Origin: Thermoflexus hugenholtzii
GTDB taxonomy: Bacteria; Chloroflexota; Anaerolineae; Thermoflexales; Thermoflexaceae
Direction: 5' to 3'
NCBI RefSeq assembly: GCF_018771565.1
Contig: NZ_CP076326.1
Location: 2,666,001 to 2,730,000, forward strand
DNA: 64,000 nt
The notes under the pieces are model-generated. The model made no database searches and was not told where the DNA came from. It worked only from the letters and a program-made list of their open reading frames with translations. A program made the position numbers and the translations under genes. This document shows positions 11,272 to 37,702 of the stretch, piece by piece. How positions within the stretch are numbered: the first letter of the stretch is position 1; each line of letters begins with the position of its first letter.

Positions 11272-11373
11272 CGCCCTTCCCTCCGCCCAGCTTCCCCCTT
11301 GAAGGGATGTTCAGTTTAATGCGGGAAGGACACGGCGGCAAAAACTTCGCACCTGAGCGGCCGCGGGGCGCGT

Positions 11374-12774
11374 TTACCGGGACGGCTCCCGCGTGGCCCT
11401 CGGGGGCCGGGAAGAGCCGTCTGGGGAGGAGATGGAGTTGACGACGACCCCGATCAGGTCATAGGTCATAGCCCCGGTGATGCGGACGGGGAGGAACTGC
11501 CCGACGGGCCACTCCCCCTCCACCAGCACCAGCCCGTCGATCTCCGGCGCGTCCCGATACGTTCGCCCCACGCTCAGGCCGTCCCCCACGCCTTCGATCA
11601 GCACCTCCAGGGTCTTCCCCACCAGCGCCTGGTTCTTGCGCAGGGAGATCGGCTGCTGGGCGGCCATCAGGCGCTCGTAACGCTCCTGTTTGACCTCCTC
11701 GGGCAGATGGCCCGGCTGGCGGGCGGAGGGGGTCTCCGGCTCATAGGAGTAAGTGAAGCAGCCCATGCGGTCGAACTCCAGATCCCGGACGAAACGGAGC
11801 AGCGCCTCGAACTCCTCCTCCGTCTCGCCGGGATAGCCGACGATGAAGGTAGTGCGGAGGGCGATGTCCGGCATGGCGCGGCGGAGCTTCTCGACGGTGC
11901 GATACACCCACTCGATGTTCGCCGGGCGCCGCATCCGGCGCAGCACAGCGGGATGGCCATGCTGCAGGGGGATGTCCAGATAGTGGGCGACCTGAGGGTA
12001 GCGGGCCATCACCTCGATCAGGCGATCGGAGACCGCGCCCGGGTAAGCATACATGATGCGGATCCACTTCACCTCGGGGACACGCTGCACCAGCCCTTCG
12101 ATCAGGGTGGGCAGCCCATCCCGCATGCCCAAATCATGGCCGTAATCTGTGGTGTCCTGGGCGATGAGGATGAGCTCCCGCACCCCCTGGTCCACCAGCC
12201 GGCGGGCCTCCGCCCAGATGGCCTCCGGCGGCCGGCTGACCGCGGGGCCTTTGATCAGGGGAATGGCGCAGAACGCGCAGGGGCGGCGGCACCCGTCCGC
12301 GATCTTCAGGTAGGCGCTCGCCCCCTGCACCGCGGCCCGCAGCACCCCCCGCTCCTCCCGGCGGATCGGCCCTTCGTCCGGGATGTGGAAAAGGGGCTCC
12401 GGGGCGGAGCGCCCGCGCAGGGCCTCGATGAACTCCAGGATGTCCATCCAGCGACGGGTGCCGATCACGCCGTCGATCCCCGGCACCTCCTCCACCAGAC
12501 GGGCCCCCCACCGCTGGGCCAAGCATCCGGCGGCGATGAGCAGCTGGCCCTTCTTCTTCCGGGCCGCGAGCTCCCGCAACACCCGCAGGGATTCCTGGCG
12601 GGCCGCCTCGATGAAGCCGCAGGTGTTCACGATGAGGACATCGGCCCGGCCGGGGCGCTCGGTCGCCTCATAGCCGGCCCCCTCCAGGAGCTGGGCCATG
12701 CTGGCCGAGTCAACGGCGTTCTTGGCGCAGCCCAGGGTGATCAGATGATAACGCCTCCCGGCGCGACGAGACAT
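11374..12774 (-). CDS. rimO: Ribosomal protein S12 methylthiotransferase
   Basis: A 466-residue radical-SAM enzyme that adds a methylthio group to the conserved Asp of ribosomal protein S12. The N-terminal UPF0004 domain has its three cluster cysteines (Cys16 in TLGCAKNAVDS, Cys52 in VNTCGF, Cys84 in AAGCLAQR). The radical-SAM motif is C-x3-C-x2-C at residues 162-169 (DGCRRPCAFC), and a TRAM RNA-binding domain follows near residue 380 onward. GCAKNAVDS distinguishes RimO from the tRNA enzyme MiaB. It ends in an unusual Ser/Arg-rich tail. The RodZ-like gene lies 15 bases upstream, so they are probably co-transcribed with rplI. Confidence 0.95.
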   Translation of the reverse strand: MSRRAGRRYHLITLGCAKNAVDSASMAQLLEGAGYEATERPGRADVLIVNTCGFIEAARQESLRVLRELAARKKKGQLLIAAGCLAQRWGARLVEEVPGIDGVIGTRRWMDILEFIEALRGRSAPEPLFHIPDEGPIRREERGVLRAAVQGASAYLKIADGCRRPCAFCAIPLIKGPAVSRPPEAIWAEARRLVDQGVRELILIAQDTTDYGHDLGMRDGLPTLIEGLVQRVPEVKWIRIMYAYPGAVSDRLIEVMARYPQVAHYLDIPLQHGHPAVLRRMRRPANIEWVYRTVEKLRRAMPDIALRTTFIVGYPGETEEEFEALLRFVRDLEFDRMGCFTYSYEPETPSARQPGHLPEEVKQERYERLMAAQQPISLRKNQALVGKTLEVLIEGVGDGLSVGRTYRDAPEIDGLVLVEGEWPVGQFLPVRITGAMTYDLIGVVVNSISSPDGSSRPPRATREPSR

Positions 12775-12789
12775 TCCTCTCCCCCCACG

Positions 12790-13509
12790 TTACGGCGAGC
12801 GGGACCAGGTTTTGCGGACGATCTCCCCGCGCCCGCCCAGGGGAGCCTCCGGCCGGCCGTTCAGGCTCACCTGAAGGGCAGCGGCGTTTCCGGTCTCTAA
12901 GCCGATGGTGGAGCGGGCCTCCCAGGTTCGGGTCTCCCCGGGCCGCAGCAGGCCCTGATAGACCACCTGCCCGTCGGCGAGGATCCGGACCCAGACGTGC
13001 TCGGCGGCGGTCACCTCCAGCCGGAGAAGGGGCGCGCCGGCTGCCGGCAGCGGCGTGCCGGTTGGGCGCGCCACGGCGCCCGGGGCGATGCCGGTCGGCG
13101 AGGGCGGGAGGGCGCCGGGGCGAGGCAGCCAGCGGGTTCGAACGACCCCGAAGAGCCCGGCGAGGATCAGGAGCGCGATCCCCAGGGCGGCCAGGCGACG
13201 CCAGGGGACCGCCGGGCGGGCGGGGATCGGGGCGAGCTCGAACATCGAGGGCATCGCAGACGGCCGAGCCGGCGGGAGGGCCCCCGGGACGCCGTCCCAT
13301 TCCGCGAGGAGGGCCTCCGCGTCCAGCCCCAGCCAGCGGGCGTAGCGGCGCAGGAACCCGCGGGCGTGGGCCGGGCTGGGCAGGAGGGAGAAGGCCTCGC
13401 GCTCCAGGGCCTCCAGATAGGCCCGCTTGATGCGGGTTTGCGCCGCGGCCTCCTCCAGAGAAAACCCCCGGGCCTCCCGGGCGGCGCGCAAGCGATCCCC
13501 GATGCCCAC
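12790..13509 (-). CDS. RodZ-like helix-turn-helix membrane protein
   Basis: A 239-residue single-pass membrane protein. Residues 1-70 are a cytoplasmic HTH_25 domain (LRAAREARGFSLEEAAAQTRIKRAYL); a membrane helix follows at about residues 125-148 (LAALGIALLILAGLFGVV); after a Pro/Ala/Thr-rich linker the last 85 residues form a DUF4115 beta domain outside the cell. This is the RodZ architecture, which links MreB to the envelope and influences cell shape; shorter than E. coli RodZ but typical for non-proteobacteria. It lies directly between rplI (2-base gap) and rimO (15-base gap), so the three are likely one transcript. Confidence 0.85.
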   Translation of the reverse strand: MGIGDRLRAAREARGFSLEEAAAQTRIKRAYLEALEREAFSLLPSPAHARGFLRRYARWLGLDAEALLAEWDGVPGALPPARPSAMPSMFELAPIPARPAVPWRRLAALGIALLILAGLFGVVRTRWLPRPGALPPSPTGIAPGAVARPTGTPLPAAGAPLLRLEVTAAEHVWVRILADGQVVYQGLLRPGETRTWEARSTIGLETGNAAALQVSLNGRPEAPLGGRGEIVRKTWSRSP

Positions 13510-13510
13510 C

Positions 13511-13960
13511 TTATCCCTCCCGTTCCACCACCACCTGCACCTGCGCGGTGATCTCAGGCCCCAGCCGCACCGTCACCGGGTGCGTCCCCAGGGTGCGGAT
13601 CGGCTGATCCAGCTCGATCCGGCGGCGGTCCACCTCCACGCCCAGCTGCTGGGCGATGGCCTCCGCGATCTGCTGCGAGGTGACGGAGCCGTAGAGCCGA
13701 TCCCCCTGGCCGGCCCGGGCCCGGATCGTGACCGTCGCCCCCTGGAGACGGGCGGCCGTCTCCCGAGCGGAGCTCAGCTGGCGGATCCGCCGCTGTTCCA
13801 TCGCCTGACGGGTTTCCGCGGCATGGCGGATCAGCCCTTCGGTGGCCGGGACGGCCAGGCCCTTCGGGATGAGATAGTTGCGCGCGTAGCCGTCCGCCAC
13901 CTCCTTCACTTCGCCGGACCGCCCCAGGTGCGGCACATCCCGCAGCAGGACCACTTTCAT
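13511..13960 (-). CDS. rplI: 50S ribosomal protein L9
   Basis: A 149-residue ribosomal protein. The N-terminal domain has the L9 signature ([20 protein letters not shown] then [20 protein letters not shown]), followed by the long connecting helix and a C-terminal domain ([33 protein letters not shown]). ATG 13960 is chosen over the upstream in-frame ATG because AGGAGG lies nine bases before it and the L9 N terminus is normally MKVILL-like. First gene of an rplI - RodZ-like - rimO operon. Confidence 0.95.
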
Positions 13961-14145
13961 CCCCGGATCCTCCTGACAGAGATCCACCCACGGGCCTCCC
14001 GGGCGCGCTGCTCAGGGGCCCGCTTCCGAGAAGGGTATCTTAGCAGGGAAGCGATGGCCGGACAACCGGCCTTCGGCGCTGAAGGTTCGCTCCGCAGCCT
14101 GGATCCGCATCTTCCCCTCTGGCTGGCGGAGATCCAGAGATCGAA

Positions 14146-14174
14146 GGCGCTCCACGAATCATCCGTGTGGCACC
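14146..14174 (-). repeat. 29-base palindromic element, copy 1 (upstream of the LexA-like gene)
   Basis: On the minus strand this is GGTGCCACACGGATGATTC followed by GTGGAGCGCC. It matches copy 2 at 14931-14959 in 27 of 29 positions but in the opposite orientation, so the pair brackets the LexA-like gene and its promoter. Confidence 0.75.
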
Positions 14175-14215
14175 CGAATTCGCGTCGCAGGGCTTCGTCA
14201 GGGCGGCCGCCCCCC

Positions 14216-14244
14216 TTGACAAAACGCGGGAAACCCTTTATGCT
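14216..14244 (+). promoter_or_regulatory. Consensus promoter of the LexA-like gene
   Basis: TTGACA (14216-14221), 17-base spacer, TATGCT (14239-14244). The predicted transcription start falls inside the palindromic operator that follows. Confidence 0.85.
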
Positions 14245-14246
14245 GG

Positions 14247-14268
14247 GATTAGAACATTTGTTCTAATC
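14247..14268 (+). promoter_or_regulatory. LexA-type operator (22-base palindrome)
   Basis: GATTAGAACA-TT-TGTTCTAATC: ten-base perfect arms. The core GAACATTTGTTC fits the Gram-positive/Chloroflexota LexA box GAAC-N4-GTTC. It overlaps the predicted start point of the LexA-like gene, so binding would block its own transcription. The box is seen directly; autoregulation is inferred. Confidence 0.8.
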
Positions 14269-14278
14269 GGAGGCGGCG

Positions 14279-14920
14279 ATGGCCCTTCGGGATCGGCTGC
14301 TCACGTTCCTGGAGGCTTACTGGGAGACCCACGGTTACGGCCCCACCCTGGAGGAGATCCGGCGCCACGTGGGGCTCTCCTCCCGCTCCCATGTCCTCTA
14401 TCACCTGCGGGCCCTGGCCCAGGAAGGCCGGGTCCAGCAGGAGCCCGGCAAGCATCGCACGTGGCGCCCGACCGATCGCTCCGCCTCCCGCATCTCGATC
14501 CCCCTGAAAGGCGTGGTCCCCGCCTCCCATCCGGATCAGGTGGATGAGGTGGTGCCGCAGGAGCTCGGGGATCTATGGCTCCCCACCGCATGGGTCCCTC
14601 CGCGCTGTCGGTTCGCCCTCTGGGTGCGGGGGGACTCCATGATCGGCCTCGGGATCCGTCCTTTCGACATCGTCCTGGTCGAGCCGGTCTCCCCGGAGGA
14701 AGTCCGTTCCGGGGATCTGGTGGTGGCGCGGGTGAAGGGCCGCAACCAGATGACCCTGAAGCAGCTGGTTCAGGATCCGGAGACCCGGACGTGGTGGCTG
14801 CGGCCCGCCCATCCGGAGCTGGCGCCCGTGCGGATGGACTGGCAGACGTGGACCCTGGAGGGCCGCGTGGCTTTCCGGTTCGGGCCGGTGCGGGATCTGG
14901 GGAGCATCACGGCGGCCTAA
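14279..14920 (+). CDS. LexA-like repressor with S24 peptidase domain
   Basis: A 213-residue two-domain regulator. Residues 1-60 form a LexA-type winged helix (LLTFLEAYWETHGYGPTLEEI); residues about 70-210 are an S24 self-cleavage domain with the Ser of WVRGDSMIG (Ser120) and the Lys of MTLKQL (Lys161), the catalytic dyad. The usual Ala-Gly cleavage site seems to be replaced: the aligned segment reads KGVVPASHP, offering Ala-Ser, so self-cleavage may be slow or absent. Ribosome site GGAGG precedes ATG 14279. Promoter and a GAAC-N4-GTTC palindrome sit just upstream, indicating autoregulation. It may be the host SOS repressor or the regulator of the small module that follows (FtsK-like ATPase, membrane protein). 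Confidence 0.85.
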   Translation: MALRDRLLTFLEAYWETHGYGPTLEEIRRHVGLSSRSHVLYHLRALAQEGRVQQEPGKHRTWRPTDRSASRISIPLKGVVPASHPDQVDEVVPQELGDLWLPTAWVPPRCRFALWVRGDSMIGLGIRPFDIVLVEPVSPEEVRSGDLVVARVKGRNQMTLKQLVQDPETRTWWLRPAHPELAPVRMDWQTWTLEGRVAFRFGPVRDLGSITAA

Positions 14921-14930
14921 CTGGATAAAA

Positions 14931-14959
14931 GGTGCCACACGAATGATTCGTGGAGCACC
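14931..14959 (+). repeat. 29-base palindromic element, copy 2 (downstream of the LexA-like gene)
   Basis: GGTGCCACACGAATGATTC followed by GTGGAGCACC; with flanking bases it folds into a hairpin with 16-base arms containing two mismatched pairs. Partial copies are seen near 47230-47242 and, more degenerate, near 32831-32858. Confidence 0.75.
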
Positions 14960-15009
14960 TTAAGGCGGCGCCGCGCTCCCTTCCTCGCAGGCGGAGAGGA
15001 GGCGTCCGG

Positions 15010-16038
15010 ATGAAGCGGCGGTGGCTGGAGGCCCAGGCGGATCTGGTGGAGCAGGTGCTCTGGCAGCATCGATCGCCCGGGCGGGTGACGGGCGGCCGGC
15101 TCACGCCGACGACCATCTTTTTTCAGATCGTCCCCGCCCCCGGCGTCCGCTGGTCGCGCCTGAAGGGGCTGGCGGAGGAGCTGGCTCTGGCCCTCGGGGT
15201 GCCCAGCGTGCGGATCCAGCGGGAGGGGCCGGTGGTGCAGCTGGAGATCCCCCGGCCCGATCCCCAGACGGTGCGCTTCCTCCCGCTGATGGAACAGGTC
15301 CGCCGGACGCTGGCCCGCTACCCGCTCTACACCGCCCTCCTCGGGCTGGCCGCGGACGGCGCGCCGCTGCTGATCCGCCTGACCAGCCCGCAGGTCGCCC
15401 ACATCCTGATCGCCGGGACCACGGGGTCGGGCAAGACGTCGCTGGCCCGGACGATGCTGGCCAGCCTGGTGTTGACCCATCGGCCCGCTCAGCTCGCCTT
15501 GATGCTCCTGGATCCCAAGGGGACGGCCTTCGCGGCCTTCCGCGAGCTCCCCCACGTGCAGGCCTTCGTCCCGGGGGATCCCTCGGAGGCGGCCGCATGC
15601 CTGGAGGAGGCGGTCCGGCGGATGGAGCGTCGCGCGCAGGAGGGGATCTCGACCCCTCGCCTGCTGATCGTCATCGATGAGCTGGGGGATCTGGTGCAGC
15701 AGGGAGGACGGGAGGTGGGCGCGCTGCTGGCCCGGCTGGCCCAGCGGGGCCGGGAGGCGGGGATTCATCTCCTGGCCTGCACCCAGAAGCCGTCGGCGGC
15801 GTTGCTGGGCGGGCAGCTGACCGCCAACTTCCCCGCCCGCCTGGTCGGACGGGTGGTCTCGGCGGAGGACGCGCGGGTGGCGGCGGGGATCGGCGGGACC
15901 GGTGCGGAGCGTCTGCAGGGGAAGGGGGATTTCCTGGCGGTGGTGGGCGGAACGGTCACCCGTTTCCAGGCGGCGTATCTGGCGCCCGAGGAGCTCCGCG
16001 CCGTGCTCCGGCAGAGAACGGCGAATGAGAGGGGATGA
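15010..16038 (+). CDS. FtsK/HerA-superfamily ATPase
   Basis: A 342-residue ATPase of the FtsK/SpoIIIE type without membrane helices. Walker A is GTTGSGKT (residues 136-143), Walker B LLIVIDELGD (about 219-228), followed by LLARLAQRGREAGIHLLACTQ, the typical FtsK sensor region. The N-terminal 120 residues resemble the FtsK alpha domain (ALALGVPSVRI, PNP-like). There is no C-terminal gamma/winged helix. ATG 15010 has GGAGAGGAGG upstream. Lacking membrane anchor and gamma domain, it resembles plasmid or integrative-element translocases more than chromosomal FtsK. It follows the LexA-like regulator, and a small membrane protein follows it, so the three may be the core of an integrated or degenerate element. 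Confidence 0.88.
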   Translation: MKRRWLEAQADLVEQVLWQHRSPGRVTGGRLTPTTIFFQIVPAPGVRWSRLKGLAEELALALGVPSVRIQREGPVVQLEIPRPDPQTVRFLPLMEQVRRTLARYPLYTALLGLAADGAPLLIRLTSPQVAHILIAGTTGSGKTSLARTMLASLVLTHRPAQLALMLLDPKGTAFAAFRELPHVQAFVPGDPSEAAACLEEAVRRMERRAQEGISTPRLLIVIDELGDLVQQGGREVGALLARLAQRGREAGIHLLACTQKPSAALLGGQLTANFPARLVGRVVSAEDARVAAGIGGTGAERLQGKGDFLAVVGGTVTRFQAAYLAPEELRAVLRQRTANERG

Positions 16039-16089
16039 ACAACGCTCGCATGCGGCTTGCGGTTCGCGATCTCGAACAGGAGGTCACAG

Positions 16090-16542
16090 ATGCGGACGGC
16101 GTGGCTGGGATTGTTCGGGATGCTCTGCGCGGTCGCCTTCGGGATCACGGGGGCGATCTGGGTGGGGCTTCATCTCGGCGGGTGGGGGCTGGCGGTGATC
16201 ACCGGGCTCGCCCTGGGGATCCCGGTGGCCGTTCTGCTGCTCTCCGCACGGCCCCGGCCGGCCGTCTGGGTCGGGGAACCGGTGACGGCACCCTGGGTGG
16301 AACGCGATCCCGCGCCCGGGATCACCAGCGGAGCGCCCTGGGCCGCCCCGGCGAACGGCTGGGGGATGGCCCCCCCAGGCCGGGGGCCCTTCGGGCTTCC
16401 CTTCCCAACGATCCCCTGGATCTCCTGGATCGCCTGGATGCCCGGGCCGCCCGCGCCGGAGCCCCACCGCGGGGGATGGCCCCTTCTGCCCCCTCCGGCG
16501 CCCCGGACCTTCACGGTGATCGGGGAGGATGGGGAGGAGTGA
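16090..16542 (+). CDS. Small membrane protein with Pro-rich tail
   Basis: 150 residues, function unknown. Two membrane helices (about residues 4-26 and 31-55: WLGLFGMLCAVAFGITGAIW and GLAVITGLALGIPVAVLLL) are followed by a 90-residue tail very rich in Pro, Trp and Gly that ends FTVIGEDGEE. ATG 16090 has AGGAGG at the right distance. It lies 51 bases after the FtsK-like ATPase and on the same strand, so it is probably its membrane partner or simply co-transcribed. Confidence 0.7.
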   Translation: MRTAWLGLFGMLCAVAFGITGAIWVGLHLGGWGLAVITGLALGIPVAVLLLSARPRPAVWVGEPVTAPWVERDPAPGITSGAPWAAPANGWGMAPPGRGPFGLPFPTIPWISWIAWMPGPPAPEPHRGGWPLLPPPAPRTFTVIGEDGEE

Positions 16543-16791
16543 AGCCGCTGGGGAGGCCACCGGAAGGGCCTCCCCAGCGCTTCAGTTCTCCTGGAAGATG
16601 TGCTACGCTCAGGCGCGCGAGGCGCAAATGGAGAGAGGCGTCGCGTCAGGCCAAGAGGCGGTGGGGCATACTCCGGCGCAGGTCCCGGGCAACGGTCGCT
16701 GGAGGATGTCTCCTCCGACGCGATCTTCTGCTCTTTCCTCCCACCTCGTCTTGCGAGTGACAAGGATCATCGCCTTGTAGGAGCCTCACCC

Positions 16792-18015
16792 GTGACCCGA
16801 TTCCTGGGCGGAGCGCGTTACCCCCCAGCGTTCTGGCTGCTGTTCTGGGGGACATGGATCAGCGCGACGGGCGGGAGCATGGTCTGGCCTTTCCTGACGC
16901 TGTATCTCCGGCAGCGTCTGGCCACCCCATTGACGCAGATCACCATGCTGCTCACCCTGAACGCAGTAACGGGTCTGGTGACCACCGCCATCGCGGGTCT
17001 GGTGGTGGATCGTTTCGGCCGGAAGGGGGCGATGGTCATCGGCCTGCTGGGCTCCGGCCTGGCCATGCTGGGGATGATCCCGGCCGCCTCCCTGGCGGCG
17101 TGGGCGGCGCTGATGGCCCTCATGGGAGGGTTCGGCCCGGTTTATCGGGTGGGAGGCGATGCCATGGTCGCCGACTTGATCGAGCCCTCTCAACGGGCCT
17201 CCGCCTACGCCCTGTTGCGCATGATCGCCAATCTGGGGGTGGCCGTCGGCCCGGCCATCGGGGGCTTCATCGTCTCCGCCTCTTACACCCTGGCCTTCAT
17301 CCTGGGTGGCCTTGCCCAGATCCTTTTCGCGGCGCTGGTGCTCCTGCGGGTGCGGGAGACCCGCCCGTCCACCCCCGAAGGTCCTCGTCCGCTCCGCCGA
17401 GGGGAAGGGTATGAGATCGTCCTGCGGGATCGGCTGTTCCTGGCCTTCTGCGGGCTTTACACCCTGGCCGGGATGGCCTATGCGCTGATGATGGTGCTGC
17501 TGCCGGTCTACGTGAAGGAGAACTACGGGGTGCCGGAGCGGCTGTATGGGTTCATCATGACCACCAACGCGGCCATGGTGGTGGGATTGCAATACGGGAT
17601 CACCCGGCTGGCGGGCCGTTTCCCTGCGCTGTCGGTGCTGGCCGTGGGCGCTCTGTTTTACGCCCTGGGGGTGGGGAGCGTGGCCCTGGGGCGGAGCTTC
17701 CCGGCCTTTCTGTTCAGCATGGTCCTGCTCACCATCGGGGAGATGCTGATGATCCCCACGGCCACCACCCTGACGGCGAACCTGGCCCCTCCGGCCGCGC
17801 GGGGCCGGTATATGAGCGTGTATGGGCTCACGTGGGGGCTGGGATTCGGGGTGGGGCCGGTGATCGGAGGGCTGTTGCACGATCAGGTCGGGCCCATGGC
17901 CATCTGGTGGGGCGGGGCCGGGATGGCCCTCCTGGCCGCGCTGGGATTCCTCTGGCTCGCGCGCCGATCCCCACCGGCTTGGGCCCCGGGAGGGGCGCGC
18001 CCGTCTCCTGAGTGA
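16792..18015 (+). CDS. Major facilitator superfamily transporter
   Basis: A 407-residue polytopic membrane protein with about 12 predicted helices. The MFS loop 2-3 motif is visible as GLVVDRFGRKGAMVIGLLGSG and a second, weaker copy sits after helix 8. The second half contains PTATTLTANLAPPAARGRYMSVYG, typical of drug:proton antiporters of the DHA1 group. Likely exports small hydrophobic compounds; substrate unknown. The GTG at 16792 is taken as start (TAGGAG upstream and the first helix begins ten residues later); a longer reading from 16600 adds a low-complexity Arg/Gly segment and is unlikely. Convergent with the EVE-domain gene, 39 bases apart. Confidence 0.88.
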   Translation: MTRFLGGARYPPAFWLLFWGTWISATGGSMVWPFLTLYLRQRLATPLTQITMLLTLNAVTGLVTTAIAGLVVDRFGRKGAMVIGLLGSGLAMLGMIPAASLAAWAALMALMGGFGPVYRVGGDAMVADLIEPSQRASAYALLRMIANLGVAVGPAIGGFIVSASYTLAFILGGLAQILFAALVLLRVRETRPSTPEGPRPLRRGEGYEIVLRDRLFLAFCGLYTLAGMAYALMMVLLPVYVKENYGVPERLYGFIMTTNAAMVVGLQYGITRLAGRFPALSVLAVGALFYALGVGSVALGRSFPAFLFSMVLLTIGEMLMIPTATTLTANLAPPAARGRYMSVYGLTWGLGFGVGPVIGGLLHDQVGPMAIWWGGAGMALLAALGFLWLARRSPPAWAPGGARPSPE

Positions 18016-18054
18016 GCCCTCTTCTCCCGGCGCCTCCACCCTCGCGCGCACGCT

Positions 18055-18474
18055 TTACAGATGAGAGAGAACGTATTTCCAGAACTCCATGGCGAACTGC
18101 GGAGGCACACAGATGTGGGCCCGAGGCTGGCGCCAGTAAGCCCAATTCGGGAATCGCTGACGGATCTCCTGCACAGGGATCGGACGCGAGAGCAGCTGAA
18201 CATCGGCGATATCGGCGATGTATCGGCCATACCATCCTTCGAAGGGATCGTCCTGAAGCCTGGGAGGGCTGATCACCGTTCCGATCGCGACAAGGCAAGA
18301 AACAGGACGCCTGATATAAAAGACCACACGATCTCCGGGACGAGCCTGTGCGTCAATAGTCCACCAGTTTCCACCGGGAACCTTCTCTGCAGGAATCCCT
18401 GCGGCGAGCATAGCAAGCGGACCAAGATGCTCTTCACTGCCGTGTATGATGTGAAACTGTTGAGCTTTGGACAT
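18055..18474 (-). CDS. EVE/PUA-like domain protein
   Basis: A 139-residue single-domain protein of the EVE (YTH/PUA-like) group. Recognisable segments are the substrate-pocket region GGNWWTIDAQARPGDRVVFYI and SCLVAIGTVIS, followed by DPFEGWYGRYIADIADVQLL. EVE domains bind modified bases (for example 5-methyl or 5-hydroxymethylcytosine) and are common in modification-dependent restriction. It is the last of five genes on the minus strand whose spacings are 5, 26, 72 and 31 bases, so it is almost certainly part of the DruA-NurA-HerA-NERD transcript. Role as the modified-DNA sensor is inference from the family. Confidence 0.75.
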   Translation of the reverse strand: MSKAQQFHIIHGSEEHLGPLAMLAAGIPAEKVPGGNWWTIDAQARPGDRVVFYIRRPVSCLVAIGTVISPPRLQDDPFEGWYGRYIADIADVQLLSRPIPVQEIRQRFPNWAYWRQPRAHICVPPQFAMEFWKYVLSHL

Positions 18475-18505
18475 GGCCCCCTCCTGGCTTTTGAAGGTTT
18501 TTTCC

Positions 18506-19546
18506 TCAATCCTTAGGCTTTCCCTTCAATGCCTGCCGGATACGCTCTCGTGCCTCCCAGAGGGCGGGATCTCCCCGACCGGGCCTCTGCAAGGTTTGCC
18601 TCAGGTAACGAATGTTCTGCACCCGGACGCCGCGGACGACCAGATCCGCGAGCACGAAAGCGCGGGAGAAGACCACCACCCCCTCGATCCATGGCTCGCG
18701 CCCGATCAGCTCTCGGAGCCGCCCTTTGAGCCACAGGATGTTCCGCAGAATCTGCTGAATGGGATCCTTCTCGATCGGGCGTCCATTTCGCAACAGGCGA
18801 TCCCCATCGGCTGTGATCCGTCCGGGATGGGACTTGGTTTCCAGGAGGAACATACGGCCTTCACGGGTGATCACCAGGTGATCGATGTTCCCGTAAGGGC
18901 TTTCGAGGTCATGGATGACGAAGAAGCCATCGCCCAGTTCTTCCAGGATGCGGCCTACCTGCTCCTCCGCATAGGCCCCTCTCTCGGCCCGACGGACGGC
19001 GCGCTCGCCTCGCCGCGCGATCCGATCCAGGAGGTCAGATCCCAGGCGGATCATCAAGGCCAGGGCGAGCAATCCGGCCCCTCCGATGCCCAGCGCGCGG
19101 CTCTCGCCGAGGAGGAGGGCCGCAGCGATCAGGAGCAGGCCGCCACCCAGGGTGACCGCCATCAGGATCCGCTTTCGCCGCATCGCCATCGCCCGGGTCG
19201 ATGCGCCCGCCTCTCCAGCCCCCGGGTTCCTGGGGATCAGCCCAAAAGCGAGGAGGCTGATCCCCAGGATGAGGATCCACAGCAGAATCAAAGCCCCTAT
19301 GGGAAGGCCGAGCAGATCCGGAACCGAAGCCCCCAGGATCCCCCCCAGGAGCCCGAGGGATCCGAGCGCCAGCCCCTGGATCAGCATGCCCCGAACCCTT
19401 CCCCAACGCCGATCCCTGGGATCCATACCGGCCATACGGCCGGCGAGCGTCATCGCCAGCGCCCCGAGCACGAATAATGTTCCGGCAAGCATCAAAAGAC
19501 CTCGTAGAAGGCCGAAAACCATCACCAGCACTTCTCCCGTGCTCAT
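18506..19546 (-). CDS. Membrane-anchored NERD-domain nuclease-like protein
   Basis: 346 residues. Residues 1-175 hold four predicted membrane helices (for example MVFGLLRGLLMLAGTLFVLG and ALILLWILILGISLLAFGL). A basic linker (DRIARRGERAVRRAERG) leads to a NERD domain at about residues 185-290: GAYAEEQVGRILEEL, then GNIDHLVITREGRMFLLETKSHPG. The D...E-x-K residues of the restriction-like fold are intact, so DNA cleavage is plausible. ATG 19546 has AGGAGGAGG upstream; the longer reading is not needed. It lies between herA and the EVE gene in the same operon. Tethering a nuclease domain to the membrane is reminiscent of abortive or entry-exclusion defence, but that is inference. Confidence 0.85.
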   Translation of the reverse strand: MSTGEVLVMVFGLLRGLLMLAGTLFVLGALAMTLAGRMAGMDPRDRRWGRVRGMLIQGLALGSLGLLGGILGASVPDLLGLPIGALILLWILILGISLLAFGLIPRNPGAGEAGASTRAMAMRRKRILMAVTLGGGLLLIAAALLLGESRALGIGGAGLLALALMIRLGSDLLDRIARRGERAVRRAERGAYAEEQVGRILEELGDGFFVIHDLESPYGNIDHLVITREGRMFLLETKSHPGRITADGDRLLRNGRPIEKDPIQQILRNILWLKGRLRELIGREPWIEGVVVFSRAFVLADLVVRGVRVQNIRYLRQTLQRPGRGDPALWEARERIRQALKGKPKD

Positions 19547-19618
19547 CCTCTGCCTCCTCCTTGCGGGATCACAGCGAGAGCCTTCCACCTCCTAATCCGT
19601 CAGGACACTGTGAGCCCG

Positions 19619-21442
19619 TCACGATGGGTGGATGTCCGCCCATCCGTTGGCCTCCAGGAACTCTTCGACGCGGTTGAAGGCGTTGAAGAAGAGGGGGGTT
19701 CCGGCGAAGGAGAGAGGGGAGACAGGGCCTGTGGTCATAAACGAATACTCCCGGGAGGCGGCATCGAAGGCGGAGTGGGGATCCCGGAACAGCTGATAGA
19801 GATCCAGCGCCCGGCTCCGTCCCCCGACCAGCTCCGAGAGGGCGCGGAACTCCTGACCCATCCCGAGCCCGAAACCAAAGAAGAAGATACGCAGCTGATC
19901 CACGATCCCCCGATGCAGGCTGGATAGCGTCTGGCTGATGAACATCCACCCTACACCGTATTTGCGGGTCGTGCGGACCGCGTCGATCAGCAGGTCACGA
20001 ACCGCCTTCTTCTCCGAATCATCGGGGTCTTCGCGCGGCGCCAGCCGGTGGGCTTCGTCCATCAGGACCAGGGTGTTCAGGCTGCGGCTCTCCCGATAAG
20101 CCGACTCCGCCGCCCGCAGGATCCCCTCGAGGATCCGCTTGATGACCAGAGCCTGAACGGTCTCCGTCCAGAAGATCGCAGACGATTCAGCGGGCGCGTT
20201 CGCGCTTCGGAACAGGGGCAGGGAGGAGGGATCCGGGCCTTCTGTTTTGGCACGCTCCTCCGACAGGTCAATGACCACCAGAGGCCGACTCCCGCCTTCT
20301 CGCTTGAAAAGCGGATACAGCAAGGCGTCCACCTTTTGGGCCCCCCGTCGGTCCTCACGGAACAAACTTGCCACCGGGAGCCAGTAACGCGTGTAGAACT
20401 CGTTGGCATCCGCGCTCTGATGCATGGATCGAAATCGCTCTCGTGCGTCGCGTGACGGGTAGATCACATTCTGAACCGACTCTTTTCCCAGAAGCGTCCA
20501 GGCCGCTTGGAAAGCCTCGCGCGTATACAGGTCAGCTAAGCGAACACGTTGACGCTCCAGCCGGTCGGCCAGGGTCTTGCACGCGCGCTCCCGGTTTTCG
20601 CCCGTTGGGATGCTGAGCTGTTCAAAGAAGGGGCTCTCATACAGGATGCGTGCGAAAAGCTCCCAGCGATCCAGCACCAGATCCCGAACACCAACCACCT
20701 GAAAGGGTTTGCCCAGCCGATTCAGGATTTGCTTCATAGGAAGCCTGAATTCTCCGGTGGGCTCCCCCCGCAGGTCCTTGGCGAACTCACCCTGAGGGTC
20801 CAGGACCAGCAAGGCCATTTGGGGATAGCGGGCATAGGCCAGGAGGATCATCTTGGCCAGCACCGACTTGCCGGAGCCCGTCTTCCCGAAGATCCCCAGA
20901 TGATAAGCCTCGCCCGCACCGTCCGGGCCGCTGTCGAAGTGCTTAAACCAAAGGGGGAGCTTCGGTGTGGAGCCGTAGACCCGCCCCAGGTAGAACAGCT
21001 GACGCTGATAGGGAGCCAGCAAGGCCTCCAGAATCGGATCGTCCACCCGATAGACGGGTGTGCCGGTAGCGGGGACGGTGCCCAGGATGCTGGGGCGGTA
21101 GGTGTTCCCATCACGACAGAAGACCGCGCTGACCACCATCTCTCCCTGATGGGTGTCCTGTCGCTCGCTCACCGCATCCACCCGGCCGCGCTGTCGGATC
21201 AGGCTTCGCATGGTGGGGTCCTCATGCCAGACGTTCCGCAGCCTTATCTCGGTGATCTGTCCGAGCGCATAGTGGCTTTTGCCATCCTGCTGGAATCGAA
21301 AGAGGGCGAATTCGCCCACCAGTTTGCGGTTCACCGCGCTGGCCAGGATGTCCAGCGCCAGCTCGGAGGTAGACGACGGTGAGCCCACCACGCCGATGCG
21401 CTCCGCCTGATCGATCTGCTGATCCAGGGAATGGTTCGCCAT
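19619..21442 (-). CDS. herA: HerA-type hexameric DNA translocase
   Basis: 607 residues, an FtsK/HerA ATPase. A HAS-barrel N-terminal domain (to about residue 135) is followed by Walker A GIFGKTGSGKS (residues 183-193), the HerA-specific DPQGEF strand (215-220), Walker B LVLMDEAHRLAP (458-469) and the sensor SQTLSSLHRGI. HerA forms a ring that pumps DNA, and its classical partner is the nuclease NurA; here the NurA gene lies 26 bases upstream, so they should act as a complex. In archaea the pair resects DNA ends for repair; in bacteria HerA is found with varied nucleases in anti-phage systems. Start ATG 21442 has GGAAAGGAGG upstream. Confidence 0.93.
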   Translation of the reverse strand: MANHSLDQQIDQAERIGVVGSPSSTSELALDILASAVNRKLVGEFALFRFQQDGKSHYALGQITEIRLRNVWHEDPTMRSLIRQRGRVDAVSERQDTHQGEMVVSAVFCRDGNTYRPSILGTVPATGTPVYRVDDPILEALLAPYQRQLFYLGRVYGSTPKLPLWFKHFDSGPDGAGEAYHLGIFGKTGSGKSVLAKMILLAYARYPQMALLVLDPQGEFAKDLRGEPTGEFRLPMKQILNRLGKPFQVVGVRDLVLDRWELFARILYESPFFEQLSIPTGENRERACKTLADRLERQRVRLADLYTREAFQAAWTLLGKESVQNVIYPSRDARERFRSMHQSADANEFYTRYWLPVASLFREDRRGAQKVDALLYPLFKREGGSRPLVVIDLSEERAKTEGPDPSSLPLFRSANAPAESSAIFWTETVQALVIKRILEGILRAAESAYRESRSLNTLVLMDEAHRLAPREDPDDSEKKAVRDLLIDAVRTTRKYGVGWMFISQTLSSLHRGIVDQLRIFFFGFGLGMGQEFRALSELVGGRSRALDLYQLFRDPHSAFDAASREYSFMTTGPVSPLSFAGTPLFFNAFNRVEEFLEANGWADIHPS

Positions 21443-21468
21443 CGTGCGGCCTCCTTTCCCGGAGAGCT

Positions 21469-22620
21469 TTATCGACCGCCCTCCGTGCGGTATCCGTGCA
21501 GATTCAGGAAGATGTCATCCACATCGCCGGCCCAGGTTTCGGCCAGCTGCTGGCTCATCACCTGGCGCAGGGCAGGGATCGCTCGACTCAGATGCTTCAC
21601 CATCCGATCGGCCAGATAAAGGGGGTAGGGCTCCAGCATCCCGGGGGCGCTACACTGAGCGCGAAGGGCCTGGATGACGGAGGCCAGCCGGGCCATGTTC
21701 CCTGCAATGGAGCGGCTCATCTCCAGCCGGACCGCCGGCAGCCAGGCGCGGGGACGGTAATAAGCGACTTGAATCTCGTTGAGCAGGCTGAGGATTTCAT
21801 CCCGCAGCTTCTCGGCACCCGGCCGGATGCGACCGGGCAGCAGCTCCAGCTGAAGATGCCAGGGTTGCCGGGGAGGCTCTAAGGGACGTGGGGCGGTAAA
21901 CTCCCCAGGCTCCAGCAATCCGGTCAGCAGCGCCCGGTCATCCAGGCGCTCCGGCCATCCGAGCTGCCTCCCGATCTCCCGCCGCACCGAGTATTTGGGC
22001 ACGCCGATCCATGCCCGATCGGTTCGCTGCGCCTTCAGGACATCCCGATAGGCAAGCAGGTAACCCTCCATATGCTTCACCAGGAACTCGGTCAAGCGAA
22101 GATCCGGCGCCTCCCGGGCCCGATTCATTGCCTGGTTGAAGTAGATCAGGGGAGTGGTGAGGGAGCCATCCAGGAAGACCACATCGTGAGGGGCCTGAAC
22201 GGCCAGCTCCAGCTCCATGCCGATCATCACCGCGCGGGCCAGCGTGCCGGTTTCCTCCTCATGTCGTTCCGTCTGCATGTAGGCCCGATGCCGGGGCTCC
22301 GGCCAGTGCCGTGTCTCTGAGGGAGGTGTCAGGCCTTCCACCGCCACCGCCACCGCTGCGACCAGGTCCGTGGCGATGAGCCGCTCCACCGCGTATGCTC
22401 CATCCACCCCGCAGGTGGTAGGGACGGGAACCGCCGGCAGGTCGCCCTCTCGTTGCAGGAGACCGCTTTCCCTGAGCGCCTGCCGGCGCTCCTGGCGTGC
22501 AGCCCGGAGGGCCCGGAGCTCTTCCCCTACGCGATGGCTGAGCGTGCCGGATTGCTCGAGGAGCTCCTCCACCAGGCCCGCCGGGAGCTCTGCGAAAGGC
22601 CGCTCCGCCTCCGGGATCAT
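21469..22620 (-). CDS. nurA: NurA-domain nuclease
   Basis: A 383-residue NurA-family 5' to 3' exonuclease/endonuclease with an RNase H-like fold. Conserved acidic motifs are present: GVDGAYAVERL (Asp73), VVFLDGSLTTPL (Asp151), and a C-terminal PYPLYLADRMVKHLSR with the expected Asp. ATG 22620 is preceded by AAGGAGG; the in-frame longer reading from 22686 is a spurious Ala/Gly-rich extension. It starts 5 bases after the DruA-like stop and stops 26 bases before herA, so it is translated in the same operon. NurA usually sits inside the HerA ring and degrades DNA pumped through it. Confidence 0.9.
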   Translation of the reverse strand: MIPEAERPFAELPAGLVEELLEQSGTLSHRVGEELRALRAARQERRQALRESGLLQREGDLPAVPVPTTCGVDGAYAVERLIATDLVAAVAVAVEGLTPPSETRHWPEPRHRAYMQTERHEEETGTLARAVMIGMELELAVQAPHDVVFLDGSLTTPLIYFNQAMNRAREAPDLRLTEFLVKHMEGYLLAYRDVLKAQRTDRAWIGVPKYSVRREIGRQLGWPERLDDRALLTGLLEPGEFTAPRPLEPPRQPWHLQLELLPGRIRPGAEKLRDEILSLLNEIQVAYYRPRAWLPAVRLEMSRSIAGNMARLASVIQALRAQCSAPGMLEPYPLYLADRMVKHLSRAIPALRQVMSQQLAETWAGDVDDIFLNLHGYRTEGGR

Positions 22621-22625
22621 CGTCT

Positions 22626-23786
22626 TTATCCTCCTTCGTCCACGATCAGGAGATCCAGCAGGCGCTCCGGCTCCCACGCATGCCATCCGTTCACCCGACC
22701 CGCCCGGGGCAACAGCCAGCGCTCCCGCCAGTAAGCGGCCAGATCCTCAAAGGGGAGATCTCGATACAGGGGCTCCGCCGCCCGCCCCTCCATGTAGTCC
22801 TCCAGGTTGTGGATCAGCGGGAAAAGAAAGGCCTCCCGACGGAGCGCATGCCGAAGGAGAGAGCGGGGAAGCCCCAGCCGCTCCAGCGCCCGCACGCAGG
22901 TCTGCCACTTGATCCGCGGCCCCACCCCATAGCCGCCTTTCGTGGAAACCCCCTGAGCCTCCAGAAACTCTCGAAAGAGCGGATACAGGACCTCCAGATG
23001 AAAGGTCCCGTAGCCTTCGGTGTAACCCAGGGAAATCGCGATCGGCTCGCCGCGATATTGAAGGCGGTTATACAGGCTGGACCGTCCGAAGGCGCTGGTC
23101 GTCGTCAGCGCCACCAGATGCGCAGGCAGGATCCGTCCCTCGATCTCCGTCCGACGGCCGCCGTATTTCCTCTGATAGGCCCGGCGCACCTCGTTCGAGG
23201 CCGCAGCCAGGGCGACCAGCTTTCCGCCCAGGAGATCGCTATACGGCGGCACCGCCCCCAGGGTCTGGATGTCCATGGTCTGATTGACCAGCTCCACCTT
23301 GCGCCCGGGCGGATACCGGAAACGCCGATCGCGGGGAGGGAAGGAAAGGGGAGGAGACTGGAGCGCCAGGATGCCGATGAGGAAAGGATGTCCGGACGGC
23401 GCACGGTTTCCCGCATCCAGGATCAGGAAGCGCAATCTTCTGCCATAGCCTTTGGAATAGGGAAGAGACCAGGTGAGGCGGGCCAGGCGGAAGAGATCCG
23501 CCTGCCACGGTTCGACCACTTCCACCAGAACCGGCCGGATCCGTTCGGGGATGATCTGCTCTCCCCGGGCGAAGTAGGGGGAGAGCCTCGGCCAGGCCCA
23601 GCGGATCCATTCCTGATGCCCGCGGAGGATGAAGCGGCGCGCTTCCGCATGCAGCCGGCGCAGGGCATCTTTCCCTTCCGGCGCCCGCAGCGTGAGGAGG
23701 CCCCGACTCCCGGCATCCACCTCAAACCCCAGGGACCGGAGATGCTCCAGCACCCGGGCCCGCAAGCGCGCTCGCGAAACGCTCAT
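22626..23786 (-). CDS. DruA-like (DUF4338) protein
   Basis: A 386-residue protein with the hallmarks of DUF4338, the DruA component of the Druantia anti-phage systems: ERIRPVLVEV, LFRLARLTWSLPYSKGYGRRLRF, LGAVPPYSDLLGGKL (residues 176-190) and LTTTSAFGRSSLYNRLQY (227-244). The biochemical role of DruA is not well established. Here it heads a five-gene operon and its stop is 5 bases before nurA. None of the other Druantia components (the DruE helicase with DUF1998, DruB-D, DruM, DruF-H) is present, so either DruA acts with HerA-NurA or it is an unrelated use of the domain. ATG 23786 begins a good N terminus; a clear promoter was not found upstream. Confidence 0.82.
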   Translation of the reverse strand: MSVSRARLRARVLEHLRSLGFEVDAGSRGLLTLRAPEGKDALRRLHAEARRFILRGHQEWIRWAWPRLSPYFARGEQIIPERIRPVLVEVVEPWQADLFRLARLTWSLPYSKGYGRRLRFLILDAGNRAPSGHPFLIGILALQSPPLSFPPRDRRFRYPPGRKVELVNQTMDIQTLGAVPPYSDLLGGKLVALAAASNEVRRAYQRKYGGRRTEIEGRILPAHLVALTTTSAFGRSSLYNRLQYRGEPIAISLGYTEGYGTFHLEVLYPLFREFLEAQGVSTKGGYGVGPRIKWQTCVRALERLGLPRSLLRHALRREAFLFPLIHNLEDYMEGRAAEPLYRDLPFEDLAAYWRERWLLPRAGRVNGWHAWEPERLLDLLIVDEGG

Positions 23787-23882
23787 CGCCCGCTCCGCCG
23801 GTTCCGCCCCTGCCGATCAGATCCCTCAAACCCAATGATATCACAAAGATGCATGCGTCCGCCGATCCCGGGCTGTCCGGAC

Positions 23883-23933
23883 GGCCCGGGAACGCGGGAG
23901 GGGGAGCGCCCAGGTGCTTCGCCGCTCACCCGC
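23883..23933. repeat. Direct repeat, left copy: decayed 3' end of an ABC permease gene
   Basis: Matches 24891-24942 in direct orientation over about 51 bases with a single one-base gap; weaker similarity continues for 20 more bases. The right copy is the genuine end of the ABC-2 permease gene. In the left copy the minus-strand frame (ERKDQRVSGE then a frameshift) is broken, so it is a pseudogene scrap. Confidence 0.8.
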
Positions 23934-23968
23934 TGGTCTTTCCGTTCGGACCACTCGATGCACCGACA

Positions 23969-23996
23969 TTGACACGGACGGATTTTCAGATACCCT
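23969..23996 (+). promoter_or_regulatory. Promoter of the AbrB/PIN toxin-antitoxin pair
   Basis: TTGACA (23969-23974), 16-base spacer, TACCCT (23991-23996), about 35 bases before the ATG of the antitoxin. Confidence 0.65.
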
Positions 23997-24031
23997 GCGA
24001 TGCAGGAATCCCATCAGCGGAGGGGTGGGCG

Positions 24032-24289
24032 ATGAGGAGCTATCCGGTACGGGTGACCAAGCGGGGCGTCATCACCCTGCCCGCACCGGTGCGCCGCAGC
24101 CTGAAGATCCGGGAGGGCAGCATCCTGACCCTCCTGGACCTGGATGGCGCACTGGTCCTGGTCCCCCAGATTCTGGAGACAGACCGCCTGGCGGACCAGC
24201 TGGCCGCGCAGTGGCGCGCCCAGGGCATCGACCTGGAGACTATGTTGAACACCCTGCGCGAGATCCGGAGTGAATCCGCCGTTCGCTAA
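24032..24289 (+). CDS. AbrB/SpoVT-family antitoxin-like DNA-binding protein
   Basis: An 85-residue swapped-hairpin AbrB DNA-binding domain (VRVTKRGVITLPAPVRRSLKIREGSILTLLDLDGALVL) plus a helical C-terminal tail (ETDRLADQLAAQWRAQG). This is the layout of VapB-type antitoxins, whose tail covers a PIN toxin. ATG 24032 follows GGAGGGG. The PIN toxin reading frame starts inside its last 20 bases. Antitoxins of this kind normally repress their own promoter. Confidence 0.85.
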   Translation: MRSYPVRVTKRGVITLPAPVRRSLKIREGSILTLLDLDGALVLVPQILETDRLADQLAAQWRAQGIDLETMLNTLREIRSESAVR

Positions 24290-24724
24290 GGTCTTCCTGG
24301 ATACCAGCGTGATTTTCGCCGCCGTCCTCTCACCCCAGGGAGGCGCGCGGATGGCCCTGCGCCTGGGCGAAATCGGTTACCTGCGCCTGATGGTAGGCCC
24401 CAGGTCTTGCGGGAATGCGAAGAGGTCGTGCGCCGCAAAGCTCCCGGTTCTCTCTCCGACCTGGCCCTCCTGCTAAACGCAGCCCACGTGGAGATGACCC
24501 CAGAGGCCAGCCCGAAAGCCCCGGAGCAGGCCCTCCAGTGGATCTCTGATCCACCTGACGCGGGGATCCTGGCAGAGGCGTTGGAGGCCAGGGCAGACTG
24601 GCTGGTGACTCACGATGCGCGCCACTTCCTGACCCTCCCGCCCGATGCGCTTCCTTTACGGGTGGGCACTCCCGGCGACCTGCTGGGATGGCTTCGTCAG
24701 CTTCTTATCCAGCAGGCCGGATGA
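24270..24724 (+). pseudogene. PIN-domain (VapC-like) toxin gene with a frameshift
   Basis: The start overlaps the antitoxin stop. The first reading frame gives the N terminus of a PIN ribonuclease (KVFLDTSVIFAAVLSP, the first catalytic Asp) up to residue ~44; the rest (LRECEEVVRRKAPG to WLVTHDARHFLTL, the last catalytic Asp) continues in another frame from about 24407. Adding one C to the run of four C at 24398-24401 joins them perfectly through VGPQVLRECEEVV. So the toxin has lost one base in a homopolymer: a real inactivating mutation, phase-variation-like slippage, or a sequencing error. PIN toxins cut tRNA or rRNA. Confidence 0.85.
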
Positions 24725-24881
24725 GCGCTGGTTCGAGGAAGTCGAGAGATGCGGAATTCTTCACTCCCGCTGCAGTCCCGCCGAACCCCAGGGGCGGTAG
24801 CGGCGGAAGCGATCGTTCCAGTCGGCAGGGCAGCTTCCCCAAGGATGATTTCCAAATGAAACCGCAGCAGCTCCTTTCACC

Positions 24882-25723
24882 TCACGCCAAGGCCCGGGAA
24901 CGCGGGAGGGGGAGCGCCCAGGTGCCTTCGCCGCTCACCCGCAGGTCCTTGCGCTGGAACCACCACCCCGCCAGCAGGAGGAAGACCAGCGAGGCGATCA
25001 GCAGCCCCACGAGCCAGTCCACCCGCAGGGAACGGACAGCCTCTCCCCCCTGATAGTATGTGAAAGGCGAAAGGCGGGCCACGGGCTCCAGCCGCTCATC
25101 CAGCCGGGCCAGCGCGGTCAGGAAGAACCCCGCAACAAGCAACGTCCCCGCTACCGCCGCCGCGACCCGCCGGGAGGGCAGCGCCAGGCTGAGCCACAAG
25201 GACAAGCTCCCGAACAGCCACAGCAGCGCGAACATCGAGAGGAAAGGCGTGAGCATCTCCCATGGCCCCAGACCCAGATGCCGGGAGAGCGGCCGCGCGA
25301 GGATCAGGCCCAAATACGAGAGCCCCAGGATCCCCACAGTGGCCACCAGGAAGGCCAGGACGCGGGCGGCGAAGAACGCCCACCGGCTCACCGGCTGCCC
25401 GAGGAGCAGATCCAGCTGTCCTCCCTCCTCCAGCCCGGCGATCAGGGCGCTGCCGGCGAGGATGGCGAAAAACCCCAGGATGAGCGGCAGCCAGGAGAAG
25501 AACTCCGCGTGCAGATACGTCGCCGGATCCGCGATGTCCTGGATCTCCCCGAAGAAGACGAGCAGCTCCCGGGGATAGGCGCGCAGCAGCTCCTCCCACT
25601 GGGCCCGCTGCTCGAAGATCGTGTCATAGAAGGGGATGAGATAGCCCCCCAGCAACCCCAGCCCCAGCCCCCAGCCCACCATCGCCCAGCGGAATCCGGA
25701 CAGCGTGTAACGAAAGACCGCTT

Positions 25724-25727
<4 letters not shown>
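24882..25727 (-). CDS. ABC-2 type transporter permease
   Basis: 281 residues with six predicted membrane helices (for example FFSWLPLILGFFAILAGSALI, FLVATVGILGLSYLGLIL, LLIASLVFLLLAGWWF), the ABC-2 topology of exporters; the EE-G-x-L segment GLEEGGQLDLLLGQPVSR before helix 3 is typical. It follows its ATPase gene with an ATGA overlap at 25724-25727. Substrate unknown (antibiotic, lipid or polysaccharide). Its C-terminal coding end is duplicated as a decayed scrap at 23883-23933. Confidence 0.87.
24891..24942. repeat. Direct repeat, right copy (3' end of the permease gene)
   Basis: Intact counterpart of the scrap at 23883-23933. The AbrB/PIN pair lies between the two copies. Confidence 0.8.
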
Positions 25728-26647
<920 letters not shown>

Positions 26648-27597
26648 CTTTCACGCTCCTTCGCGGAGAGTTCGATCCTCTGCCGCCGCGACCATCCCGC
26701 CCGAGCCTCCTCACAGAGCCAGGCCATCATCCTCCGCCCAGGCGCCCACCCTCCGGGCCCGCGGACAACGGACCGGGCGGCGCGCAGCACCTCTCCGCGC
26801 CGCCGCCGCGGGTTGAGCCCTTTCTTAGTGTAGTCTTCTGGAAGCTTCGAGGAAAGCCTGCCAGGCTCATGTCCTTGAATGATCGGAGAGGGACAGAGAC
26901 CACCCCCCCTCTCGTTGCGCCATGGGGTTCAAGCAGGGCAACTGCCCGCAGTTGCCTTCCACCCCATCTCCGATCCTCCGAGAGGAAGAGCCGCGATCTT
27001 CCGTCCCGAACCTCCGCCTTCGATGGTGCAAGGGTTGCGGTGAAGATTGCTTCGGCAACCCCGAGATCCCGGTTCTCGATGGCGCAAGGGTCGCGGCTAA
27101 AGCCGCTCCTACAAAAAGACGGTTTTTGTAGGAGGGGCTTTCGCCCCGAACCTCCGCCTTCGATGACGCAGGGGTCGCAGTGAAACCCGCTCCGATAAAC
27201 TCCGAACCCCTGGTTCTCGATGACGCAAAGGGTCGCGGCTAAAGCCGCTCCTACCAACAAACATAAGGATGCCGAAATGAATTTCGGCTTACAACCGGAA
27301 GGGCTCCGGCCCTGAACCCTCCGTCTTCGAGGCGGCCGGGGATCGTGGGGGAAGCCGCGCCGCCCGCATCGATCTTTCTCTCCCCTTGTTGGGTCATCGG
27401 TTCACGAGGGCCACTGCAGGCTGCTGACCGGCGTCCGGATCTCCGATCACTGGAGGGGAGGAGCCGCCCGCCATCCCCATGCTCGCCCAGGCGCGAGCTC
27501 CCTCACTGCCACATCTCCCAGGAAAACGGAGGGGGAGGCCGGCAACGGCCTCCCCCTCCGGAGCGCTCCGGGAAAACCGACCGCTCCTCGGAGCGGC
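26648..27597. other. Gene-free stretch carrying REP-like repeats
   Basis: About 950 bases without a convincing coding region. The left 220 bases look like plain intergenic DNA; 26990-27320 is a repeat tract (see that entry); the last 280 bases have nothing I can name. Several short reading frames here are made of repeats only. Confidence 0.7.
26990..27320. repeat. Imperfect tandem repeat (about 141 bases) of REP-like palindromes
   Basis: Two sequence units recur about 141 bases apart: cccgaacctccgccttcgat at 27005 and 27145, and ggttctcgatgRcgcaa followed by a gtcgcggctaaagccgctcc palindrome at 27071 and 27212. The palindrome (GCGGCTaaAGCCGC) and a second one, GTAGGAGGGGCTTTCGCCCC, are of the REP type that often lies between genes and depends on RAYT-type transposases. 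The tract ends with the hairpin GCCGAAAT-GA-ATTTCGGC at 27271-27288. Confidence 0.75.
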
Positions 27598-30871: not shown

Positions 30872-31072
30872 CGGACCCCTCCTTTCAGCTGGACTTTAGA
30901 CAAAAATCCTCCTAACCCGGTGACAGGGATCACTCCCACGACTGAAGGAACGCTTGGGTTCGTTCCCGACCCCACCTGATCTGGAAGACGGCCACCAGGA
31001 CATCCGCCGCTGCGGCCCTGCGGTCAAGGCGCTCTACTCATGAGACGCCCGAAGCCCGGGGGATCTTACAAG

Positions 31073-34319: not shown

Positions 34320-34482
34320 GGCTTCCTCCTTTCCCAACGCCATGCCGGAGAAAACGGCCTTCGTTCTTGCCCCGGCCATCGAAGCCCTCCCTCAAGAGGA
34401 GCGATTCAATCTCCTCTCTCCGGAGCGCTTCTCGACCCTTCTCCGGGATCTCCCGGATCCTTTGCGGCGAGCGATCCGGATC

Positions 34483-37689: not shown

Positions 37690-37702
37690 GGCCGCCCTCC
37701 GC

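Follow-up and report, generated by a model that had tools for sequence, protein, structure and literature searches.

Druantia systems of all types carry the YprA-type helicase DruE; type I comprises DruABCDE, and Druantia IV, as defined in PADLOC, consists of DruE–DruF–DruL (PMC8565338). Another group of anti-phage systems, represented by HerA–Sir2 and HerA–DUF4297, joins a HerA hexamer-type ATPase to a partner enzyme. HerA also pairs with the nuclease NurA in archaea and Deinococcus-Thermus, where the two are discussed as repair machines: HerA–NurA of archaea and Deinococcus is credited with the resection of DNA ends, and in T. kodakarensis it performs ATP-dependent degradation of both strands of double-stranded DNA, for which an antiviral role was suggested by the authors (PMC12977600). 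Last, DndFGH and 'HerA/FtsK capture' systems combine a HerA/FtsK ATPase with a nuclease, and the DUF4338 GNAT and NERD domains are optional parts of DndF in DndFGH-type systems (PMC10853773).

Here we analysed an operon that brings together members of these families in the hot-spring bacterium Thermoflexus hugenholtzii. It lies in a 64,000-nucleotide stretch of DNA (hereafter the window) spanning positions 2666001–2730000 of the 3.32-Mb single-contig genome, and its features, in window coordinates, are as follows.

22626–23786, minus strand: DruA, 386 aa (PF14236), gene 1 of the core cassette
21469–22620, minus strand: NurA nuclease, 383 aa (PF09376), gene 2 of the core
19619–21442, minus strand: HerA/FtsK-type ATPase, 607 aa (DUF87), gene 3 of the core
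18506–19546, minus strand: membrane NERD nuclease-domain protein, 346 aa (PF08378), accessory
18055–18474, minus strand: EVE-domain protein, 139 aa (PF01878), accessory
16690–18015, plus strand: MFS-like transporter, within the gained or lost block and broken in genome G001
16584–23884, no strand: 7.3-kb block without counterpart in Thermoflexus genome G004, from empty-site comparison
24059–24724, plus strand: AbrB/PIN toxin–antitoxin pair, outside the block and present in the cassette-free genome

The five minus-strand open reading frames are separated by 5, 26, 72 and 31 bases, as originally described, and the domain identities first proposed for them agreed with a Pfam check in which the matches of all five proteins exceeded the curated cut-offs (E = 1e-74 for DruA, 2.5e-9 for NurA, 1.8e-10 for HerA, 3.4e-18 for NERD and 7.2e-6 for EVE). 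The NERD protein, which had been read as a four-helix membrane protein, indeed has about four hydrophobic segments along with a D-ExK motif, and its ATG start codon at 19546 is conserved in G001, a genome of another Thermoflexus species.

Comparison with the described systems revealed shared parts in a different arrangement. DruA matched the PADLOC DruA1 model (E = 1.4e-87), which links the operon to Druantia type I, and it belongs to the same family as the DruA genes that lie beside DruE-type helicases; however, no operon protein matched DruE, nor did any match type I DruB, DruC or DruD in PADLOC, and the loci hold NurA–HerA instead. HerA distantly matched a solved HerA of the HerA–nuclease anti-phage kind and has intact Walker motifs, but it is divergent (best PADLOC HerA match E = 4e-15, far below the NCBIfam cut-offs), and in place of Sir2 or DUF4297 it is accompanied by NurA and by DruA as a third component. 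The same two enzyme families, adjacent here, make up the archaeal and Deinococcus-Thermus pairs, which are discussed without DruA. DndF, DndG and DndH proteins are absent, with only a marginal match to the DndH ATPase domain (E = 0.005), and neither NurA nor a stand-alone DruA is described for DndFGH or 'HerA/FtsK capture' systems (PMC10853773). The original prediction knew of no described system with this gene set, and for DruA with HerA–NurA we found none either in the literature searched, which covered few subscription papers or preprints.

To follow the association across genomes, we searched 60 relatives, of which 10 proved to have DruA and 9 to have NurA; the genomes coincide, the tenth DruA being located at a contig end, and in the relatives carrying the pair DruA and NurA are adjacent with HerA next. 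In a survey of 400 Chloroflexota genomes, DruA was found in 23 and a strong NurA match in 20, and both occurred together in 14 genomes against 1.15 expected (hypergeometric P of about 1e-15, kinship of the genomes being ignored), with the two genes adjacent in all 14. Six NurA genomes had no close DruA. Two of them (L181 and L182) encode a divergent PF14236 protein, differing in its N-terminal part, directly upstream of NurA–HerA. The other four belong to one genus, and the three examined (L183, L184 and L185) have no DruA; their NurA–HerA pair, which belongs to this clade, follows a conserved gene that encodes approximately 432 aa. For more distant homologues of NurA in Chloroflexales, no DruA or HerA was recognised among the adjoining genes, indicating that the DruA association is specific to the NurA–HerA pair.

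A scan of GTDB genomes with a DruA profile yielded 79 loci, most of which carry DruA–NurA–HerA, in phyla that include Chloroflexota, Bacillota, Pseudomonadota, Acidobacteriota, Nitrospirota, Gemmatimonadota, Zixibacteria, Verrucomicrobiota and others; some of these hosts are metagenome-assembled genomes, in which binning may be wrong. All 51 distinct complete loci, three of them IMG/VR viral contigs, are co-directional, 49 in the order DruA–NurA–HerA and 2 in the order NurA–HerA–DruA. Solitary DruA genes were found at L059, L093 and L126 and on the viral contigs L236 and L240, where DruA lies among phage-type genes without NurA–HerA. Clustering of the cassette neighbours revealed neither a recurrent fourth gene nor a recurrent adjoining transposase. 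The linkage of DruA, NurA and HerA is far beyond chance, and the conserved unit is these three genes. DruA and HerA–NurA thus do co-occur elsewhere, the 51 loci being spread over many phyla, and the proposal that they belong together holds for a recurrent three-gene unit, not for the five-gene unit first proposed, given that about 50 cassettes have no NERD or EVE gene nearby. We also observed that NurA or HerA is interrupted by a stop or frameshift at L062, L056 and G241:C85, which represents cassette decay in some hosts, and that a C-terminal extension of HerA at L067:6144-8405 matches DnaX_C (PF20964, E = 7e-8).

Comparison of Thermoflexus genomes revealed the local history of the block. In G004, the sequences matching window positions 10588–16583 and 23885–26858 are only 32 bases apart, so that the 7.3 kb containing the transporter, EVE, NERD, HerA, NurA and DruA genes are missing. 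The GC content of the block is 0.644, as against 0.68–0.70 in its surroundings, and no target duplication, inverted repeats or other repeats were seen at its junction. NERD and EVE accompany the cassette only in the window species and in G001, which has the gene order of the window with an intact NERD and a frameshifted EVE; in G006, a near-identical relative, the first 20 aa of NERD are present at a contig end. In G003 the left chromosomal flank directly follows HerA, without NERD, EVE or the transporter, and in G008 the right flank directly abuts DruA, without the toxin–antitoxin pair. These junctions and the frameshifted EVE in G001 identify NERD and EVE as lineage-specific riders. The MFS-like transporter is probably a passenger, and the AbrB/PIN pair is ruled out as a member of the system, since G004 has retained it beside the empty site. 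The data support a patchy and horizontally spread three-gene unit.

Next, we turned to the proteins. The catalytic-type residues of NurA and HerA are intact: NurA D73, E136, D151, E330, D338 and K342 are essentially invariant across the 51 loci, as is HerA R490, and the HerA Walker A K192, Walker B D462/E463 and Q504 are invariant in 51 of 51. The essentially invariant polar DruA residues at the same loci include R116, D124, R152, Y182, GK188-189, Y208, S231, R235, S236, Y239, R241, H313 and R317, a polar conservation that would suit an enzyme more than a fast-evolving recogniser. Profile searches of the PDB returned no solved structure for NurA and nothing of use for DruA. A high-confidence structure model of DruA, built with an alignment (pLDDT 91), gave weak Foldseek matches to the PDB (best E = 8.5e-4, TM of about 0.2); all 50 of the 50 PDB matches listed were p300/CBP acetyltransferase domains, with low scores, and annotated GNATs recur, also with low scores, among its matches to viral structures. 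A GNAT-type acyltransferase fold is tentatively predicted for DruA. An independent study, reportedly by Burroughs and colleagues, made the same assignment. In that work, DUF4338 was called a GNAT domain and PF14236 was found fused to DndF (PMC10853773). That DruA might recognise foreign DNA, as first suggested, remains a conjecture, its predicted fold being acyltransferase-like, and no experimentally assigned function for DruA was found in the literature searched.

DruA also diverges less in step with its partners than they do with each other, with pairwise distance correlations of 0.90 for NurA–HerA, 0.63 for DruA–NurA and 0.47 for DruA–HerA. On the DruA tree, the NurA–HerA label must change 7 times, and well supported branches force no fewer than 4 of these changes, showing that DruA and NurA–HerA have come together or parted more than once; the history of DruA is one of swapping and then re-pairing with NurA–HerA. 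Outside the cassette, DruA lies beside a DruE-type helicase and a PD-(D/E)XK nuclease in Druantia-like loci, and with such varied partners DruA resembles a control component fitted to several kinds of machinery. In Gammaproteobacteria and Burkholderiaceae (L107, L108, L116, L121, L127 and L132), DruA is found beside a CARF-like gene and a kinase–ORC/CDC6-like ATPase, possibly a separate DruA-containing defence context. At a further seven loci (L069, L072, L149, L125, L130, L134 and L142) it adjoins highly divergent NurA-like and HerA-like genes, with a Rad50/SbcC-like AAA ATPase also nearby at L125.

The cassette also occurs on viral sequences. It is complete on three IMG/VR contigs (L231, L232 and L238), and one of these copies adjoins DUF669 and RusA recombination genes; on L238, an Eco57I/N6-type methylase gene follows the cassette. 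By contrast, a search of 50,697 GenBank phage records gave no NurA or DruA match, searches of plasmids and GenBank phages found no DruA–NurA–HerA cassette, and the DruA copies on plasmids lie near transposases. PADLOC families were not in excess around 32 cassettes relative to random regions (148 versus 148 proteins), a rough comparison because the random regions were drawn from a small number of Chloroflexota genomes. The defence-island setting first suggested for the locus was not borne out by these flanks, and the toxin–antitoxin pair cited for it lies outside the gained or lost block. The window does contain a second restriction-type operon (33450–41593, minus strand), which encodes a ParA-like ATPase, a PLD and SNF2 helicase protein (1068 aa) and an Eco57I or type IIG-like methylase (1296 aa), and in and near 30500–30900 a predicted open reading frame holds tandem VAVGEGVGV-type repeats that recur in L233.

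Since the flanks show no enrichment, the case for defence draws on how the cassette is distributed, on its mobility and presence on viral contigs, and on the other contexts in which DruA is found. On these grounds we consider DruA–NurA–HerA to be, with reasonable probability, a compact, horizontally spread anti-invader module in which HerA–NurA degrades DNA under the control of DruA. The hexameric DNA translocase HerA and the dimeric nuclease NurA would make up a machine that uses ATP to thread double-stranded DNA and break it down, in the way demonstrated for archaeal relatives. DruA, a putative GNAT-fold enzyme shared with Druantia, would control this machine by marking, sensing or licensing the target, such that phage or plasmid DNA is destroyed and the host chromosome is spared; NERD and EVE would be local add-ons. 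We infer the immunity, the complex and the controlling role of DruA from directly observed gene identity, strict linkage, repeated pairing, gain and loss, viral carriage and intact motifs. The helicase–nuclease, CARF/kinase–ATPase and DndF-fusion contexts of DruA are likewise defence-like. Against an anti-invader module stand the PADLOC-neutral flanks, the NurA–HerA pairs without DruA in L183–L185, the solitary DruA genes, the weakness of the Foldseek matches behind the GNAT assignment and the lack of a GenBank phage match.

A DNA-repair or recombination module, in which HerA–NurA resects or degrades broken ends under DruA regulation and spreads by helping heat- or radiation-stressed cells, is rather unlikely. 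The end-resection role assigned to archaeal and Deinococcus HerA–NurA (PMC12977600), the many thermophiles among cassette carriers and the viral copy beside DUF669 and RusA would fit such a function, but a repair module accords poorly with the patchy distribution (DruA in 23 of 400 Chloroflexota), the clean empty site in the congener G004, non-thermophilic carriers such as Silanimonas and Sedimenticola, and the defence contexts of DruA elsewhere.

Somewhat more doubtfully, DruA could be a DNA-modifying GNAT-fold acyltransferase and the cassette a restriction-modification-like system, in which a non-methyl base mark protects and HerA–NurA degrades unmodified DNA. The Mom protein of phage Mu offers the comparison for such an enzyme. 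On this reading, the solitary DruA of viral contigs would serve to counter restriction, and the role of DruA in Druantia would be recast too.

It is improbable that the cassette is cargo that serves phages or mobile elements, either as a weapon degrading host or competitor DNA or by helping them to replicate, with the chromosomal copies as remnants: three IMG/VR contigs do carry it in full, one in a replication-gene context, yet most copies reside on bacterial contigs with motifs intact over wide divergence, no transposase recurs beside them and GenBank phages gave no match. Still less probable is a genuine five-gene system requiring NERD and EVE, as the original prediction had it. The short gaps in the window and the same order in G001 speak for it, but the two genes are confined to two Thermoflexus species, and the roughly 50 cassettes without them, the G003 flank directly after HerA and the frameshifted EVE of G001 weigh heavily against it. 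Chance adjacency, or a transposon-borne stray DruA, as the solitary genes and the plasmid copies near transposases might suggest, is contradicted by 51 of 51 co-directional loci in two orders and several DruA lineages and can practically be dismissed.

If DruA–NurA–HerA is indeed an anti-invader module, bacterial HerA–NurA, usually treated as a repair pair, would enter immunity. Cultured bacteria with the minimal three-gene cassette, namely Thermanaerothrix daxensis, Caldanaerobacter subterraneus, Pyrinomonas methylaliphatogenes and Methylococcus capsulatus Texas, make the function of DruA open to direct testing. DruA itself would be a portable controller that works with no fewer than two effectors of unrelated kinds, the Druantia helicase and the HerA–NurA degradase.
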